The notes beneath the pieces are model-generated. The model was not told the origin of the DNA. It searched no databases and was given only the letters and a program-made list of their open reading frames with translations. The position numbers and the translations under genes were made by a program. DNA of 64,000 bases from Erythrobasidium yunnanense (lineage: Eukaryota > Basidiomycota > Cystobasidiomycetes > Erythrobasidiales > Erythrobasidiaceae), in assembly GCA_001600175.1 (NCBI GenBank), contig BCJC01000001.1, positions 3,643,652 to 3,707,651 on the forward strand. The letters run 5' to 3'. Positions 1,952 through 55,062 of the stretch are shown here, one piece after another (position 1 is the first letter of the stretch; every line of letters begins with the position of its first letter).

Positions 1952-4198
1952 ATGTCGGCCATACCTATCGACGAGAAGCTCGAGAGCCCCGAATATGCAG
2001 AAGCTGCCAACACCCCGTCTGGTCAAGAACCCGCGGTTATACTGGACGCTATGGCCGAGAAGAGAATGTATCGCAAGATGGACTTTCGACTGCTTCCCAT
2101 TCTATCGTTACTATATCTAGTCGCGTTCTTGGATCGAGGCGTAAGAGCTTCACCGGTTCGGCATAGCCGGGAGACATTTCCAACTAATCTGCATGGCCGT
2201 GCCTCTTTCGAATGTAGAAGTGAGGCAAATACTCTAGACGAGCAGAACCCAGGCTGATGGATTCTGCTCTTACCCCAGTATTGGAAATGCCAGACTAGCT
2301 GGACTGGAAAAGGACCTCCACATGTCGGGCGGGAATTATGCTCTTGCTCTGAGTATGTACTCCCACAGCCCTGTACTCACGCCTACGGCTAATGCTCGCC
2401 CTCAGGCTTGTTTTTCGTTTCATACAATCTTTGCGAGGTCCCAGGCAAGTCTAGCAAAGGTTTCAAGCTCTGTTTACCTACTAATATTGTCGATTCTAAC
2501 AGCAAACCTCATGATGAAGCTTATCAAGCCAAAGATCTGGCTGTCTTCCATCGTTACTCTGTTCGGAGTAGTTATGATTGGCATGGGTTTGATCAGGTCT
2601 TTCGGCGGCCTAATAGCCATGCGAGTCCTCCTGGGCGTCTTTGAGTCAGGTATGTATCCTCAGGGCCAGCGAGAAGGCTTAGAGAGCTGACAGGCGTTTC
2701 ATTGACAGGCTTGTTTCCCGGAGCAACTTACCTGTTGTCGCTGTGGTATCCTCGTTCCCATCTACAGGTGAGTTCAGCGATCTTCCTGCTGCACTCGAGG
2801 CTTACAGAGCATACAGTTCCGCATCGCGATTTTCTTTTCCGCCGCTACGATAGCAGGTAAGCTTGAAGCTTCGATCCTGCCAACATTGCTAAGCGCATCG
2901 GTCGTATAGGCGCCTTCAGGTAGATATCCCTGATAAAAAGCTGAGTTGCGGATACTGAGGACCTCCGCTGCAGTGGTTTGCTGGCGTATGGTATCCAGTT
3001 TATGTCAGGAACAGCCGGATACAATGGCTGGCGATGGATCTTCATGTAAAGAAAAAAAGACACAAGCGTTACTAAGTGCTTGGGCTGACATACCTCAACA
3101 ATAGCCTGGAGGGAATGTAGGTCCTGCGAAATTCCACCTTGACCCCATCCGCTGAGCATGCGTGCAGTTTCACGACGCTAGTCGGCGCTATCAGCTACTT
3201 CTTCCTCCACAATTTCCCAGAGACTGCAACCTTCCTCACCGACGAACAACGAGAATGGGCGATCTGGAAGAAGCTCAATGATGGCACCAGTGTCGGCGAG
3301 CACAGAGGGCTCAACTGGCGTCTCATTCGCTCCGGCTTGATTAACTGGCAGGTCTGGCTAGCAACACTCTTCTACATCAGTATCGTTACCCCGCTCTACT
3401 CCATCGGTCTATTCTTGCCAACCATCATCAATGCCTTCGGAAAGTACACAAGGTAAAGCTCCAGAATTGTCCTCGCTAATGGAATGTCGTTCTGACATTG
3501 GCACGACTAGGCCTCAAGTCCAACTTTTGACGGTGCCAATATACATAACCGCGTGTATCTGGGTGCTCGTCTCTTCAATTCTCGCAGATCGATGGCAGAA
3601 ACGCTTCCTCTTCGTCTTCATTGACCAATGGTTGTGTATAATCGGTTTCGTTATCCAAGTGGCCCATCCTCCCTCTGGTGTGCGGTACTTCGGCCTATTC
3701 TTGATCGCTTCAGGGGCATACGGCGCGCTCCCGACAGTAGTAGCATGGCTATCGTGCAACCTCAGAGGACAGACTAAACGAGCTGTCGGAGTCAGCTTCG
3801 AGATTGGTATCGGTAGGTTATCCGCCTAGCTAGTGCGCGCCGAGTACTTGCTGAGGAATATCTGAAGGTAACTTCGGTGGCCTTATCGCATCAAATATCT
3901 ACATCAAGTCATTCAAAGGCCGATATTGGATTGGTAAGCCTAGGCTAGCAGGAGCGTTTCGTTGAGGTTGACTGAGACTGACGATCATCTCGCAGGTCAC
4001 GGTGTCAACCTAGGCCTTCTGTTCATGGGTATCATATGTTCTCCGCTATATGCATACCTCCTCAACAGGCTTAATAAGCAGCGGGATGCAGAGCACGAAA
4101 GACAAATGGCTCTGCCAGAGGAGCAGAGGACGAAGTATACGATCGAAGAGCTGCATGAGCTTGGAGATAAGGATCCCTCATTCCGCTATACCATTTAG
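1952..4198 (+). CDS. MFS transporter, anion:cation symporter (Dal5/allantoate permease-like) family, tandem copy 1
   Basis: A 499-aa plasma-membrane permease of the Dal5-like ACS family; family substrates are allantoate, ureidosuccinate, small peptides or organic-acid vitamins, and the substrate here is unknown. Fourteen exons join to exactly 500 codons: 1952-2140, 2218-2219, 2279-2352, 2406-2444, 2503-2649, 2709-2767, 2817-2856, 2910-2919, 2974-3045, 3105-3116, 3168-3452, 3511-3812, 3868-3933, 3996-4198. The joined protein carries the family block FLDRGNIGNARLAG near residue 60, IAMRVLLGVFESG with the family's Arg/Gly pattern, the cytoplasmic loop ILADRWQKR, and about 12 hydrophobic segments. 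Exons of 2, 10 and 12 nt are required for frame. Intron 2445-2502 is GC-AG (donor AG|GCAAGT). It is followed 570 bp downstream by a close duplicate, which lacks introns 2445-2502 and 2768-2816. Confidence 0.88.
2218..2219 (+). other. 2-nt microexon (AA) in MFS copy 1
   Basis: The dinucleotide AA sits between an acceptor (TGTAG) and a donor (GTGAGG). The flanking introns are 77 nt (2141-2217) and 59 nt (2220-2278), each with a CTAAT/CTGAT-like branch site. It supplies the first two bases of the Asn codon in the family motif DRGNIGNA. Without it the reading frame is lost. Confidence 0.8.
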
Positions 4199-4767: not shown

Positions 4768-6900
4768 ATGTTCGGGAAACCAAGTGAAGAGAAGGTCGAG
4801 AGTTCTGAATATGCGGAAGCTGTCAAGACGCAACCTCGTCGAGAACCATCTGTGATCCTCGACGCGAAAGCCGAGAAGAGGATGTACCGCAAGATGGACT
4901 TCCGTCTGCTTCCCATTCTGGCTCTGCTATATCTCGTTGCTTTCCTCGACCGTGGTGTAAGAGCTTCACCGGTTCAGCATAGCCGAGGCATTTTTCCAAC
5001 TAATCTTCACCGGTGTACCTTTCTCATCTATAGAAGTGAGTGAGACGTAGCAATTAGCTAGGGTTGAGACTGATGCATGCTGCTCTAGTATCGGAAATGC
5101 TAGACTCGCAGGACTGGAAGCGGATCTCAACATGACAGGCGGAGACTATGCTCTGGCTCTGAGTACGCCCCGTTTTATTAGCTTCGTCTATACGTACTGA
5201 AACATCCTTTACAGGCTTGTTCTTCGTGTCTTATAACCTCTGCGAGGTGCCGGCCAACTTGATGATGAAACTCATCAAGCCAAAGATCTGGCTATCTTCC
5301 ATCGTCTTTCTCTTTGGCATCGTAATGATTGGCATGGGACTGATCACGAACTTCGGTGGTTTGATCGCCATGCGAGTTCTCCTTGGAGTCTTCGAATCAG
5401 GTACATTCGGCGCTCTCTTTTTGTCCTGAGTCGGCATTGACATCAGATTGGTCATTGACAGGCTTGTTCCCTGGCGCGACGTATCTGCTTTCGCTTTGGT
5501 ACCCACGTTCCCATTTACAGTTTCGCATCGCTATCTTCTTTTCGGCTGCTACGGTAGCAGGTGAGTCTCGAGGCCGCGTCGCAGCCGTCATTGCTGAGCG
5601 CATTGGTCGTATATAGGTGCTTTCAGGTACAGCGAGACCCAAGCGGTAGTGCAGCATCTCGATGTTGACCTATTTTTCGTATGCAGTGGCTTGCTGGCAT
5701 ATGGTATCCAATTCATGTCCGGCACAGCTGGGTATAACGGCTGGCGATGGATATTTATGTGAGCTCAGCGCTTGCACAAGCCCACTGAATACCTGAGCTG
5801 ACCCACTTTGATTACAGTTTAGAGGGAATGTAAGTCTAGCGGAAATCTCGCCTCTACATCCTTTTCTGAGTGTGTTCGCAGCTTTACAACACTCTGCGGC
5901 GCTGTTAGCTACTTCTTCCTCCACAATTTCCCGGAAACGGCCTCCTTCCTCACCAAAGAACAGCGAGAATGGGCTATTTGGAAGAAATTGAATGATGGCA
6001 CCAGTGTTGGCGAGCATACGGGACTAAACTGGCGTCTGATCCGTTCCGGTCTCATCAATTGGCAAGTCTGGCTTGCGACACTCTTTTACATCAGTATTGT
6101 CACGCCGCTCTATTCGATCAGTCTGTTCTTGCCTACAATCATCAATGCCTTCGGCCAGTTCAGCAGGTGAGGCAGCTTTTATTTGGTCTGCAATGTGACT
6201 CTGACGTATGTGTGTCTAGACCCCAAGTCCAGCTACTGACGGTGCCAGTATACGTGGTCGCATGTATCTGGGTGCTCGTCTCTTCCATCCTGGCGGACAG
6301 ATGGCAGAAGCGCTTCGTTTTCCTCTTCATTGACCAATGGCTCTGCATCATCGGTTTTGTGATTCAGCTCGCATACCCTCCGTCTGGAGTGAGGTACTTC
6401 GGCCTCTTCTTGATAGCTTCCGGTTCGTATGCTGCTCTGCCGACAGTTGTAGCATGGCTGTCGGTCAATCTGAGAGGTCAGACCAAGAGAGCTGTAGGAG
6501 TCAGCTTCGAGATCGGTATTGGTAGGTCATCGCGCCGCTTTTCCATCATGTTAACGTTAGCTGATGAAAGTCCAGGTAACTTTGGAGGCCTTATCGCTTC
6601 TAACATCTACATCAAGAACTTCGGCGGTCGATATTGGACAGGTATGCCTAGGCTAGCAGGAAATCCCTTTGCGTTCGAGCTGACGGAAATGCTCCAGGCC
6701 ATGGTGTCAACCTAGGCCTTCTGTTCATGGGCATCATCTGTTCTCCGTTATATGCCTACCTACTCAACAGGCTAAACAAGCAGCGTGACGCAGAGCACGA
6801 AAGACAGATGGCCTTGCCAGAAGAGAAGAGGACGAAATACTCTGTCGAAGAGCTCCATGAACTTGGAGATAAGGATCCCTCATTCCGCTATACCATCTAA
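4768..6900 (+). CDS. MFS transporter, Dal5/allantoate permease-like family, tandem copy 2
   Basis: Close paralog of the upstream gene, also 499 aa. Twelve exons join to 500 codons: 4768-4956, 5034-5035, 5089-5162, 5215-5400, 5462-5560, 5617-5626, 5687-5758, 5818-5829, 5882-6166, 6220-6521, 6576-6641, 6698-6900. Every exon length matches copy 1 except where copy 2 has two exons fused: 39+147 becomes 186, and 59+40 becomes 99. Thus two introns differ between the copies. The same 2-, 10- and 12-nt exons are kept. The N-terminal cytoplasmic tail is the least conserved part, while the C-terminal tail (ELHELGDKDPSFRYTI) is identical. Same orientation and spacing suggest a local duplication. Substrate unknown; the two may differ in substrate or expression. 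Confidence 0.88.
5034..5035 (+). other. 2-nt microexon (AA) in MFS copy 2
   Basis: AA lies between acceptor CTATAG and donor GTGAGTG, flanked by introns of 77 nt (4957-5033) and 53 nt (5036-5088). It is positioned exactly as in copy 1 and completes the Asn codon of DRGNIGNA. Confidence 0.8.
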
Positions 6901-36361: not shown

Positions 36362-37345
36362 TTACCTAAACAAGCTCGTAATCCCTGTGTGCCGCTCGGG
36401 ACCTGATGCAGCAGTGATTTGCTTCAGCTCACACGAGAGGATGTCTCCGAACATATTGCGCTTTATGTTGACGACTCTCACGTTGGCATAGTGTCTGATC
36501 TTGGGTTGGCTCTCCAGGGTTTGACGAGACCCGAGCAACTTGTCCAATCTCTTACTTGACCAGTCTGAATACTGCCACGTCGACCATTCCAGGCGTTGGC
36601 CCTCAACATGTGTAGTGATGATTGCTGCGGACGCCCTGTGTGTACTTAAATCCACAAGAGGTGCTTCGCGTACGAACTTGCTCTCATCCTCCCACGCTGT
36701 CATTACTGCTATTTGAGCCCAGCTGGCCCAGCCTGTGGTTTTGCCCTTGGCAAAGACGACTTCTTTGACTTGTAGGCCAGTAGCGAGTCGGATGGCCGAC
36801 GTTTCAGGGTGCCTTCCCAATACGCCTATAAGCATTGTAAAAGACTCCCTCAATGTGATAGCATGTCTTGGCGAGACACTTGGAGCGATAGTGCAGTCAG
36901 CGAGAGGTACCCTGCACTGCGGAAGTTCCGTGCCAGGAAGGCTGAACTCAAGGACCAATCTGTCGACAGTGTCGACACGACCGTCAACGAGGTAGTTCAC
37001 AAGCGCCGAGTCTGTAAGAAGATTGCATCCAGCTTCAGGTACCTCCTGTGGCCCTAGTCGACGCAGTCGAAGATCTTTGATAAAGTGATTTCGTAGAATG
37101 CATCTCATAGGCTTGGGTATATTGGTCTTTGCTGGCGGGGAGCGTCTGGCAATCTGCTGCGCTTCCTGCCAGCTGATGGTAGAGCCAAGTACACTCTGGG
37201 TTGATCTCGAGGATGATCTGGACGCACTTGCACGACTACCCTTGCGACGTGTTTGCCTGGTACTGACAGATGTCCTGCTAGATGCACTCGAACTTATCGA
37301 TGTCGTGTCGACTGCTGGTTTCTTCTTCTCGTCGTGGTATGACAT
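36362..37345 (-). CDS. Unnamed three-member protein family, member A
   Basis: A single uninterrupted exon of 327 aa from Met 37345 (the frame is open further upstream but without ATG). A Ser/Arg/Lys-rich N-terminus (residues 10-55) precedes a Trp motif STISWQEAQQIARR. Conserved blocks shared with two other genes in this window follow: LVLEFSLPG....CRVPLADC, KTTGWASWAQIAVMTAWEDE (at about residue 225), LDKLLGSRQTLE and, near the end, YANVRVVNIKRNMFGDILSC. No signal peptide, transmembrane helix, zinc site or known catalytic motif is visible. The lack of introns stands out among intron-rich neighbours. Function unknown; likely a soluble beta-rich domain with a disordered N-terminus. Confidence 0.72.
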   Translation of the reverse strand: MSYHDEKKKPAVDTTSISSSASSRTSVSTRQTRRKGSRASASRSSSRSTQSVLGSTISWQEAQQIARRSPPAKTNIPKPMRCILRNHFIKDLRLRRLGPQEVPEAGCNLLTDSALVNYLVDGRVDTVDRLVLEFSLPGTELPQCRVPLADCTIAPSVSPRHAITLRESFTMLIGVLGRHPETSAIRLATGLQVKEVVFAKGKTTGWASWAQIAVMTAWEDESKFVREAPLVDLSTHRASAAIITTHVEGQRLEWSTWQYSDWSSKRLDKLLGSRQTLESQPKIRHYANVRVVNIKRNMFGDILSCELKQITAASGPERHTGITSLFR

Positions 37346-38124
37346 AGCTGCAATCTTGTGTGTGCGTCCAAGGTTTTGCACTCTTGCAAATCAAGCGATA
37401 GTGTTTCGGTAACGGTTGAAGCGGGAGCCAAGGTGTGATCCTCGAGGACAGTAAGACAATGGTGCCGGTGTCAAGGGTTCACGGACAAAGGCCCTTTCGT
37501 GTTGCAGAATGGATGGGAGTACGAAGGGATACGATGAAGACATGAACGTTTATGCTGAGTGGGTGCAAACTTCTGCGCTGTTGAGACCTTTCTTGAGTAG
37601 TTACAGCGGAGATCGATTGCTTGGATGCGACGCGACAGCTAGCTTGTTCCGAATTCGCAGGTCCTCTGCAGAGAGCGTACTTCTCGGCGCTCTGCAAGTA
37701 ACGCGCTACCTCAAGACGCTGATATTCGATGTGCTCTAGATCCGAGCGAAGTCCAGGGCAGGCCAGGCTGGCTCGGAAATATCGACTGCCAGATCCTCTG
37801 GACGGTGCAGACTGACCAGAGCATAGGGAGGGAGGATCACACTCTGCGAAATCCAGCAGCTGAAGGGTCGGAATCGACAAGTGCGAGCAGAACCGAGTTT
37901 GGCATTACGGCCGAAATGCCTTAAATCTGCATCACAACACGCCAGACATATCTGGGGACCATCGTATATACACCATTAGACCAGTTGAAGAACTACGCTA
38001 CCACAGACGCTCCACGAGAAAGTGACATCAAGATCGCAAAATCTCGGCAACAGCTTCGACGGCAGCCAGACTATATAAGACGAGCCATCAGCTTTCGGCA
38101 TCAAGAGAACCGGAGTATGCTGGC
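37346..38124. other. Intergenic region with an isolated TATA-like box
   Basis: About 780 nt between two minus-strand genes. Frames at 37479-37880 and 37509-37739 have no support. A clean TATATAAG lies at 38072-38079 in plus orientation, about 50 nt before an antisense ATG (38131); see findings. Confidence 0.4.
38072..38079 (+). promoter_or_regulatory. TATA-like box without an obvious gene
   Basis: TATATAAG in plus orientation, about 50 nt before an antisense ATG inside the aquaporin 3' region. Exact consensus match, but function unproved. Confidence 0.3.
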
Positions 38125-51909: not shown

Positions 51910-52675
51910 TCGCTCAGCAGACTACTGGTCTGTCTCGTCTTCATCTTCTTGACCGTCACAAGTTCTCAATTATCGACTTCTAGCTTTCCGGGTCTCTTCG
52001 TCAATGTACTGGTCATTTTCTCTCTCTCTATCTTCTGGCTTCCACATCATTACAACACTCTACACTTTGTCGTAAACACAATGTCTCGCTATCGTCTCTG
52101 AACTCCTATACTCTGAAGAAATTGAAAATGTGCTCGTTGTAGTGTCAATGTATCCCACCGTGTCCTAGCCGAGGGCGTCGCTTACAAGCGTCCGATACCA
52201 CTTAGCTAAAGTCAGGTCAGCTACTTTCCCTCTTTCTGGTCACTCCACTGAAGTCCTGCTCGGGCACTGGTAAGCTCTTGTTCAGATAGCGTGTCCCTCC
52301 AATACTGACGCTTTCTCGCTCTTATGCCTCACATCAAAAACGAGAACACTTCTTAGGAGTATAATAATGCGATCAGATTGTCAAGCAAACATCCGCGCAG
52401 GTAACGAATCGTGTCCATAGCCCGACAAGGCCATTCACGGTCCGCTTCCCTCAAGCTCCTTTGAGGACATATATTCACACCTCATGCAAGGAGCTAGACC
52501 CTCTTGGCGGTCTCTTACCGGCAGGCCTTTCAACCTCTAGTCCCTTTCAATCGATGCTGCCTATCTGGTGCGGCCAGTGTTGCTGCAAGCGGAACCTTGA
52601 ACGCTCCTGTAACATTCACGAATACACATCAGCTACTGATTCCCAAGCACGCGATTGACTTGAAGCACGTTCGAA
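51910..52675. other. Intergenic region, pyrimidine-rich
   Basis: Holds the ATG8 3' flank and the long upstream region of family member B. CT-rich around 52005-52060 and 52225-52330. No gene recognised. Confidence 0.45.
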
Positions 52676-53689
52676 ATGGCCGACTCCGGTGCCAAGAAGA
52701 CATATAGACGCACTTCGTCGACAAGCTCACGAGCCTCTAGTGCTGTATCGATCGTCAAGGTTGAGCGCGGTCGAACAGGCGGCTCCTTCAGTTCATCATG
52801 CTCTTCGATGGAGTCGGCAAGCAAGGGTGAGGTGACGGGCACTCTCACCTGGATTCAAGCAGAGGAGCGCGCACTACGAATGGCACTCGGAAAACCTACA
52901 AACAGAGGCCATTATACAGACCTCAGCGCATCCGCAGACATACGAGATATAGTACTCAGACGACTGCGAACTGACGAAGTTCCTACAGTCGTACGGGGCA
53001 GCAATGAGAGATCTCTCTACAACGGGTATGGAAATTCTATGTACGACAACTTCGTTACAGATGATCAACCTGAGATCGCTTTCAAACTGGTTCTCGACTT
53101 CACTATGCCCGACCAGACATCGTCGCGCTGCAAGATTCCTCTAGCAAACTGTGGCACAACTTGCCTTTTAGACCGATACGACGCGCCCAAGATCTTCTTC
53201 GCCACGCTCATCCAGCTTTTTGACATAACCCCCTCTATGATAGCCATTCCCTTACCTCCCTGTATACAGTTAAAAGGGGTCAAGTTTGTTCCGGGCAGAT
53301 CTCAAGAGTGGGCAAGCTCTGCATCGATCTGACTGGACAAGGAGTGGGTAGACGAAAGCAAGTCTATTGCCGAAGCACATCTCGTCGGCTTCGCCTACAT
53401 ACACAGACAGAAAGTATACGCTAGATTGGACGTGAAAGTGGAGGGTCGATCACAGAGCACCACAAGGGCGCTCTGGCCAGCAAATTTGGAGTCCGCTCCC
53501 AGAGAGACTTGCGAGCGATGGATTGGGCCAAGGCAGCGAGTGGAGGGCGTCGGACAATGCTATCCTAACGTAAGAGTGGTAGACATCAAGCGCAATGCTG
53601 TAGGAACTATAGTCTCGTGCAGACTGCATCAGGTGATCAAGCCAGAGTCTTCCAGAGCTCGTCGAGTTGTAAAGGGCTTTCTACGTTAG
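52676..53689 (+). CDS. Unnamed three-member protein family, member B, with one in-frame UGA
   Basis: Met 52676 opens a frame of 218 codons to a UGA at 53330-53332. The same frame then stays open for another 118 codons to 53689, and these continue the family homology: WVDESKSIAEAHLVGF, WIGPRQRVEGVG, YPNVRVVDIKRNAVGTIVSC, ending in GFLR. The total of about 336 residues matches members A (327) and C (308), so the UGA lies inside the ancestral coding region, at the position of a Thr in C. Upstream conserved parts are TGTLTWIQAEERALR, LVLDFTMPD....CKIPLANC and SQEWASSASI. Readthrough (context UGA CUG), recoding, sequence error or a young pseudogene are all possible. No introns. Function unknown. 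Confidence 0.6.
53330..53332 (+). other. In-frame UGA inside family member B
   Basis: The reading is GCATCGATC TGA CTGGAC. Coding similarity to paralogs A and C continues in the same frame on both sides with no gap in the alignment around the stop. Confidence 0.8.
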
Positions 53690-54135
53690 TAGAGCTTCTT
53701 CACTGGCGTACAAAATCGAAGGCAGGTGTGATTGTATAAGGTGCGGAGCACTATGCTGACAACATCATATATATTTCAGCTCCATAGATCGACTTTCCCG
53801 GACACTAGGAAATCTGGCTGACAGATTCCGTCGATCACTCCAACCGAGCTCCGTAACCACCAAGTACGCTCTACACATTCAGTATGACATGATTACAACG
53901 GTCGAAACTATCGCTGCGTGATTTACAGGCCTAGTCCCCTTCGAATTCGCTTGGTTTTTCGAGAAATCTGCCTTTGCCTGCCCCCCGCCTCTACAACTCC
54001 TATGCTGCGTCCCTCCTTGTCTTGATCGCAACCACCGCGTATCGAAGCAACAGTCGAATATCTGCCCATTTACAAGCGATCTGCACAGTTAAGCCGTCAA
54101 ACCACGTCAAAGGGCCAACAAGCCAGGTGTCACCA
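53690..54135. other. Intergenic region between members B and C
   Basis: About 450 nt, promoter region of member C. The frame upstream of 54136 is open to about 53974 but lacks an ATG and family similarity. Confidence 0.4.
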
Positions 54136-55062
54136 ATGAGCTCGCGCTCATCCATGAGAAAGACGATATCTCGTCATGAAAGCACATCTAGCTCCATCAA
54201 GTCTAGCGGAAGTCAACGAAGTGCAACTCTTAGCTGGAGCTGGGATCAGGCTCAGGAGGAAGCACGTCGCCTCGCACCTCTAACGCTCCAATCGACTCAG
54301 GTTGAGAAGCTGGGGCTGCGCCTGATCAAGCCATGCGAAGAGCCTATAGCCATCTGTAGAAAACTGGACCTCGCACCTAACGGACATTCAAGGGACGGGA
54401 AGGTGTACATTGTCGATGGCCAGCTTGATATCGCCAAGAACATGGTCATCGAATATAACGCTCCTGGCGAACAGCTTAAAGATTGCAGAATCTCCCTAAC
54501 GAACTGTGCCGTGTCAGACCCCGCGTGCAAGAATGGTAGCAGTACGAAGAATACGTTTACAGATCTTATAAGGATCTTCGCCGAAAGAACCAAACCGCCG
54601 GCTGTAAAACTGGCGCCCTGCATAAAGCTGAACAACATCGTATTCGATGCTGCAGGGAAAGTCAACAAATGGGCCGCCTCTGCGAGTCTCACGATTGATA
54701 CCGCTTGGGTAGATGACAGTAAGTCCATCAACGAAGCGCGTCTCATTAGCTTCGATTCGTACGACAAGCGCCCAGCGGACGACTTCTGGATTGATATGCT
54801 GGCGCAAGGTCAGAAGCTACGTCATAGACAGGCCTTACACCCCGATCACCTGAAAGCCGGGTCCAGAAAGAAGTGGAATCAATGGCTCGGACCGAAGCAG
54901 ACTTTGGACGGCAACCAGTCTATTCAAGTCTACACGAACGTCAAGGTCGTCGACATCAAGCGCAATGTCTTCGGCGATGTAATCTCTTGCAGACTTCAGC
55001 AAGTTGGAACGGTATCCACACCCAAGCCACACAGAGGAATAGCGGGTATCTTCAAAAAGTAG
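54136..55062 (+). CDS. Unnamed three-member protein family, member C
   Basis: A single exon of 308 aa from ATG 54136; the in-frame stretch further upstream has no ATG. The N-terminus is Ser/Arg-rich (residues 1-35), then ATLSWSWDQAQEEARRLAP, MVIEYNAPGEQLKDCRISLT with the conserved Cys, a KLAPCIKLNNIVFDAAGKVN block, WAASASLTIDTAWVDDSKSI, WNQWLGPKQTLDG and YTNVKVVDIKRNVFGDVISC, ending PHRGIAGIFKK. It is closest to member B at the WVD.SKSI block and to A at NVFGD/NMFGD. B and C are tandem with 446 nt between them and the same orientation. No membrane segment, no secretion signal, no known domain recognised. Confidence 0.72.
   Translation: MSSRSSMRKTISRHESTSSSIKSSGSQRSATLSWSWDQAQEEARRLAPLTLQSTQVEKLGLRLIKPCEEPIAICRKLDLAPNGHSRDGKVYIVDGQLDIAKNMVIEYNAPGEQLKDCRISLTNCAVSDPACKNGSSTKNTFTDLIRIFAERTKPPAVKLAPCIKLNNIVFDAAGKVNKWAASASLTIDTAWVDDSKSINEARLISFDSYDKRPADDFWIDMLAQGQKLRHRQALHPDHLKAGSRKKWNQWLGPKQTLDGNQSIQVYTNVKVVDIKRNVFGDVISCRLQQVGTVSTPKPHRGIAGIFKK

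Follow-up and report, generated by a model that had tools for sequence, protein, structure and literature searches.

A predicted two-nucleotide exon completes a conserved membrane-helix motif in two tandem fungal permease genes

Introduction

Short fungal introns are usually recognized by intron definition. A stwintron is a nested pair in which a splice element of the outer intron is interrupted by the inner one, with nothing retained between them. Exons of a single nucleotide have been described both in fungi and in plants. The available text of a paper published in February 2026 presents CYP621A P450 genes of Fusarium as carrying a 1-nt exon with RNA reads (PMC12940212), and the available portions of two reports on plant 1-nt exons argue for intron definition together with competition of the flanking introns (PMC4674806, PMC8831610).

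Here we analyse two tandem permease genes in a window of 64,000 nt, the whole stretch of DNA under study. We conclude, with a probability of roughly 0.9, that both genes contain a genuine 2-nt exon, AA, included constitutively and lying between two ordinary short spliceosomal introns; splicing itself, the order of intron removal and the constitutive use of AA we infer from the genomic sequence. Because the 1-nt exon of the Fusarium P450 genes is already published, the novelty is weaker than the initial annotation of this locus had stated: the gene structure, though extreme, is of a known kind, and this is perhaps the first 2-nt exon described, as a prediction, in a fungal permease. A full-text search of open-licence papers found no case of a 2-nt exon in a fungus; among the papers listed were ones on a disease database and on HLA-F.

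Results

The two genes encode permeases of equal length (Table 1). With AA kept, the spliced frame of each is 1500 nt, or 500 codons including the stop, the length that the initial annotation had given; 450 of these 500 codons (stop included) specify the same residue in the two copies, an amino acid identity of 90%. The copies differ with a dN of 0.062 and a dS of 1.33, and 109 of the 211 fourfold sites that they have in common differ (identity 48%); the resulting dN/dS of about 0.05, together with the equal 499-residue proteins, indicates that both copies are under purifying selection. All 11 introns of copy 2 match copy 1 introns in position and phase, and a 10-nt and a 12-nt exon in both genes mark the gene structure as intron-dense.

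Profile searches gave a match to MFS_1 (PF07690, E = 2e-28) and one to TIGR00893 (2A0114; E = 2.1e-51, 175 bits); the latter score falls short of the curated cut-off of 395, meaning that the permeases are kin to the galactonate transporters and not themselves members. The combination of MFS_1 and 2A0114-type matches assigns them to the MFS anion:cation symporter type (2.A.1.14), and the DRxN of this class in transmembrane helix 1 (TM1) is present provided that the AA exon is read. The surroundings look fungal, with 49–52% GC, short introns and genes that include tubulin and protein O-mannosyltransferase in the window.

Copy 1 has a GC-AG intron (2445–2502, donor GCAAGT) with none at the equivalent place in copy 2, which is a gain or loss after the duplication, and a second intron of its own at 2768–2816. 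The latter is one of three of the 24 introns of both genes from which the branch motif CTRA[CTG] is absent, the others being 5163–5214 and 5627–5686. Elsewhere in the window, three reading frames look alike by eye (36362–37390 on the minus strand; 52664–53332 and 53935–55062 on the plus strand); a Pfam scan of those at 36362–37390 and 53935–55062 gave no match.

Table 1 Features of the two permease genes in the spliced models, in window coordinates.
Feature	Start	End	Strand	Remarks
Gene copy 1	1952	4198	+	MFS anion:cation-symporter-like permease; 14 exons, 13 introns, 499 aa
Copy 1 exon 1, coding part	1952	2140	+	Ends ...FLDRG, phase 0
Copy 1 intron 1a	2141	2217	+	77 nt, GTAAGA...TAG
Conserved block of intron 1a	2141	2169	+	28/29 nt same as 4957–4985 in copy 2
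Branch-like CTAAT, copy 1 intron 1a	2184	2188	+	A 30 nt before intron end
Predicted 2-nt exon AA, copy 1	2218	2219	+	Bases 1–2 of Asn64 codon
Copy 1 intron 1b	2220	2278	+	59 nt, GTGAGG...CAG
Branch-like CTGAT, copy 1 intron 1b	2254	2258	+	A 21 nt before intron end
Copy 1 exon 3	2279	2352	+	Starts with third base of Asn64 codon, then IGNA
10-nt exon, copy 1	2910	2919	+	Spliced model
12-nt exon, copy 1	3105	3116	+	Spliced model
Gene copy 2	4768	6900	+	MFS anion:cation-symporter-like permease; 12 exons, 11 introns, 499 aa
Copy 2 exon 1, coding part	4768	4956	+	Ends ...FLDRG
Copy 2 intron 1a	4957	5033	+	77 nt; first 29 nt conserved
Branch-like CTAAT, copy 2 intron 1a	5000	5004	+	A 30 nt before intron end
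Predicted 2-nt exon AA, copy 2	5034	5035	+	Spliced model
Copy 2 intron 1b	5036	5088	+	53 nt, GTGAGT...TAG
Branch-like CTGAT, copy 2 intron 1b	5070	5074	+	A 15 nt before intron end
Copy 2 exon 3	5089	5162	+	Spliced model
10-nt exon, copy 2	5617	5626	+	Spliced model
12-nt exon, copy 2	5818	5829	+	Spliced model

The codon that AA would complete, that of Asn64, is the second after the Arg codon and lies in the DRGNIGNA of TM1. The alignment of a profile of both proteins with DgoT (6e9n), a bacterial relative of solved structure, has no gaps between query residue 49 and the end of the motif, setting D61-R62-G63-N64 against D46-R47-A48-N49. In the available text of the DgoT study, proton coupling is linked to Asp46 and substrate to Arg47; Asn49 shares their buried polar pocket and is counted with its residues of lower conservation (PMC6532931). 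An annotation that misses AA would break both transporters right behind the coupling residues.

We found no close relatives in viral contigs, by protein or by motif pattern, and none in prokaryote genomes by protein search. A motif pattern search of the prokaryote genomes gave four loci (L001–L004), of which three (L002, L003 and L004) were judged by eye to be chance matches and not permeases. The fourth is a permease gene, apparently intron-interrupted, in a bin labelled Deltaproteobacteria MAG CPC1 (NYXK01000007.1). Judging by the intron-bearing fungal-like permeases on its contigs (L001 and L005–L025), this bin (G001), labelled bacterial, seems to contain fungal DNA.

Searching the bin gave 29 matching places, 13 of them with a TM1 match. 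DRxN, as [LM]DRxN, is found in six of the 13 (C11, C9, C13, C123, C85 and C183), and the five best TM1 matches all carry it; the remaining seven have DSSN (C224) or DK without the Asn (C58, C166, two in C126, C153 and C225), so the Asn is not universal among MFS proteins. C58 and C166, whose scores are equal, could represent a single gene. Our alignment of relatives took in the six DRxN genes and left out the other seven, a choice that by itself makes D, R and N invariant there; the DgoT alignment and the DRxN of the five best TM1 matches are independent of that choice.

We tried every splicing with one or two introns in a region of about 160–180 nt per copy, provided that each intron was 35 nt or longer, began with GT or GC and ended in AG. 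Exactly one per copy spells DRGNIGNA, and in both copies this is the one with the AA exon, as the initial annotation had proposed; its further claim that the frame is lost without AA also held, the frame shifting after DRG and meeting a stop soon after in both copies. When the outer sites are kept constant and no intron is shorter than 40 nt, copy 1 allows four two-intron combinations, of which only that with AA is open and in frame, and copy 2 allows seven, of which two are open, one through AA (score 7.8) and one through AC (score −12.4), the latter giving Thr. A single intron keeps the frame open in 44 ways in copy 1, 13 of them with GT-AG ends, and in 33 ways in copy 2, 17 of them with GT-AG ends; none of these yields DRGNIGNA. 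In two respects the predicted AA exon is as expected of an ultra-short constitutive exon (1–5 nt): in both copies it is flanked by two introns with GT-AG sites of their own, and both the frame and the conserved motif depend on it.

In 60,000 simulated intronic spans for each length, YAG-AA-GTRAG with at least 40 nt on either side arose by chance in 0.05% of spans of 138 nt and 0.03% of spans of 132 nt, while the less strict AG-AA-GT did so in about 2%. In the window as a whole, YAGAAGTRAG is present at two places, both of them the predicted AA exons; since 15 of 100 shuffles also held at least two, the window-wide count alone is no proof.

Loss of the frame could in principle be met by non-canonical splicing, with an intron whose end lies 2 nt early and lacks the AG, giving DRGSIGNA, or be the mark of decaying, frameshifted genes. 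A Ser is indeed read before exon 3 in both copies if the last AG is retained; this would, however, require a non-AG acceptor in both copies, and decay is hard to reconcile with a dN/dS of about 0.05 and intact frames of 499 residues. We consider this pair of explanations highly improbable.

Turning to splice-site quality, we scored the four introns at AA with a matrix trained on the 20 other introns of both genes. The donors scored −3.8, 2.5, −0.6 and 3.9, all lower than the training range of 4.1–11.7, and the acceptors 2.8, 4.2, 4.0 and 4.7, in the lower half of a range of 2.8–8.7; the sites around AA are therefore not the perfect acceptor and donor that had initially been described. The low donor totals arise mainly because the exonic sides score poorly (−8.1, −3.0, −4.9 and −3.0, against −2.0 to 3.9 in the training introns), the intronic sides being near normal (4.3, 5.5, 4.3 and 6.9, against 4.4 to 8.8). 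For the donor after AA this weakness is partly unavoidable, as a 2-nt exon puts the acceptor of the previous intron in the donor's upstream side. Introns 1a and 1b of both copies each carry a donor of the form GTAAG or GTGAG, a CTRAY branch motif and a TAG or CAG end.

The rival that we take most seriously is a single 112-nt intron in both copies (2141–2252 in copy 1, 4957–5068 in copy 2), with part of intron 1b becoming coding, so that ADGFCSYPS or TDACCSS would replace the Asn between DRG and IGNA. This intron is GT-AG, open and in frame in both copies, and its copy 1 acceptor, at 4.6, lies inside the training range and above the acceptor before AA (2.8). Its copy 2 acceptor (GAG), however, scores −2.2, under all 20 training introns; the two inserts are unlike in length (9 against 7 residues) and in sequence, although the remaining protein is 90% identical; and DRxN, a motif of DgoT and the nearest relatives found, would be destroyed. 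On balance we regard a 112-nt intron as very unlikely, if less so than non-canonical splicing or decay.

A nested intron, or stwintron, removed inside-out in place of two consecutive introns and an exon is to us the least probable alternative of all. Stwintron-like compound introns are known in fungi, but here all donors and acceptors are whole, with no splice element split by an inner intron, and the frame needs AA to be kept. Among open-licence papers we found none on stwintrons with microexons.

With the 2-nt exon as the preferred reading, the DRxN genes of the bin give some view of its history. Four (C11, C9, C13 and C123) have the motif without an intron and serve as length markers. In the other two (C85 and C183) a single intron, 51 or 53 nt long, interrupts the Arg codon after its second base; this site lies 4 coding nt upstream of intron 1a and 6 upstream of intron 1b, so that an intron close to the AA site is old. 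The AA exon itself was seen in the two window copies only and in none of the six DRxN genes. It is reasonable to suppose that, in the lineage of the window and ahead of the tandem duplication, the old intron shifted by a few bases and another was added, or else that the site was rebuilt; that the 2-nt exon predates the duplication, as had been claimed, fits the identical site in both copies at a dS of 1.33.

Intron 1a is the longest of the 24 introns in both copies, the other 22 being 49–62 nt. The two sequences align without gaps at 59 of 77 identical bases, and within the conserved block 22 of the 23 bases outside the donor hexamer match (expected count about 1e-4 within intron 1a and 1e-3 over 11 intron pairs). 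We used the fourfold-site identity of 0.48 as a neutral guide for intron conservation; retention of 28 of 29 nt against this 48% indicates that some element within intron 1a is probably under selection.

The other shared introns have core identities of 0.47 to 0.71. Next highest after intron 1a is the intron just before the 10-nt exon (0.71), followed by the last intron (0.64); the intron before the 12-nt exon (0.53) and intron 1b (0.48) do not stand out. That the top two conserved introns both precede tiny exons is suggestive, as a pattern noticed post hoc. The intron that leads into the 10-nt exon is also unusually conserved in its 3' half, keeping 23 of 25 nt (2884–2908 and 5589–5613), and 16 identical bases, GCCTAGGCTAGCAGGA, directly follow the donor of the last intron (3938–3953 and 6646–6661; expected count about 0.02).

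RNA structure was not supported as the cause of intron 1a conservation: folding gave z-scores of −0.74 (copy 1) and −2.47 (copy 2) with unlike folds, and the two-sequence consensus has one 5-pair hairpin with no compensating change. The corresponding z-scores for intron 1b are −2.91 in copy 1 and 0.15 in copy 2. Recent gene conversion is unlikely, since nearby exons are as diverged as elsewhere (9 of 13 fourfold sites differ in codons 51–75). Intron 1a is open in frame in both copies, with too few changes for a coding test. A search for an introner-like repeated origin found no intron match in the window at E 0.05 beyond each intron's own paralog, save for matches of 13–16 nt.

Discussion

We propose that the spliceosome would take each intron at AA as a unit. 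Only 2 nt separate the intron 1a acceptor from the intron 1b donor, and simultaneous occupancy of both would hardly be possible; removal would therefore be sequential, with either intron leaving first. The joined product, GGC-AA-T, would restore Asn64 in TM1. By analogy with the plant 1-nt exons, intron definition and competition of the flanking introns should apply to the 2-nt AA exon too.

What the conserved 29-nt block does is a matter of graded guesses. Our leading guess is a splicing element, another an enhancer of transcription. A more specific and rather doubtful idea is that the first 29 nt of intron 1a, beyond the donor hexamer, make or regulate recognition of the 2-nt exon, with retention of intron 1a as a switch to short products of 101 and 91 residues; if so, both permeases would be controlled through the tiny exon.

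Exons of 1–2 nt are a test of how the spliceosome works where acceptor and donor overlap spatially. The two diverged paralogs, which share a predicted 2-nt exon and, upstream of it, a constrained intron, offer a system in which the required intronic signals and the order of removal can be studied.

Among known systems, stwintrons resemble this locus as fungal compound introns that are removed successively; they keep nothing between the introns, whereas 2 nt are kept here. The P450 genes of Phanerochaete chrysosporium are likewise fungal, with introns of 45–55 bp and very short exons, the smallest of which is 6 bp in the available part of that report (PMC1184071). APC11 and VPS55 of land plants share with AA an exon too small for exon definition, essential to the frame and missed by annotation; according to the available text, theirs is 1 nt, in plants and verified by RNA (PMC4674806, PMC8831610). 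In CYP621A of Fusarium, as far as the available text of that paper goes, the exon is 1 nt and not 2, in a P450 and not a permease, and the case draws on 18 listed RNA reads and 20 orthologs (24 genes elsewhere in the text), against two paralogs and their genomic DNA here. In both cases, nevertheless, the gene is fungal, the ultra-short exon lies in a conserved motif, the frame is lost without it and the same candidate exon is present in all genes compared; a further likeness is the distance between the outer exons, 139 nt in F. graminearum (PMC12940212).
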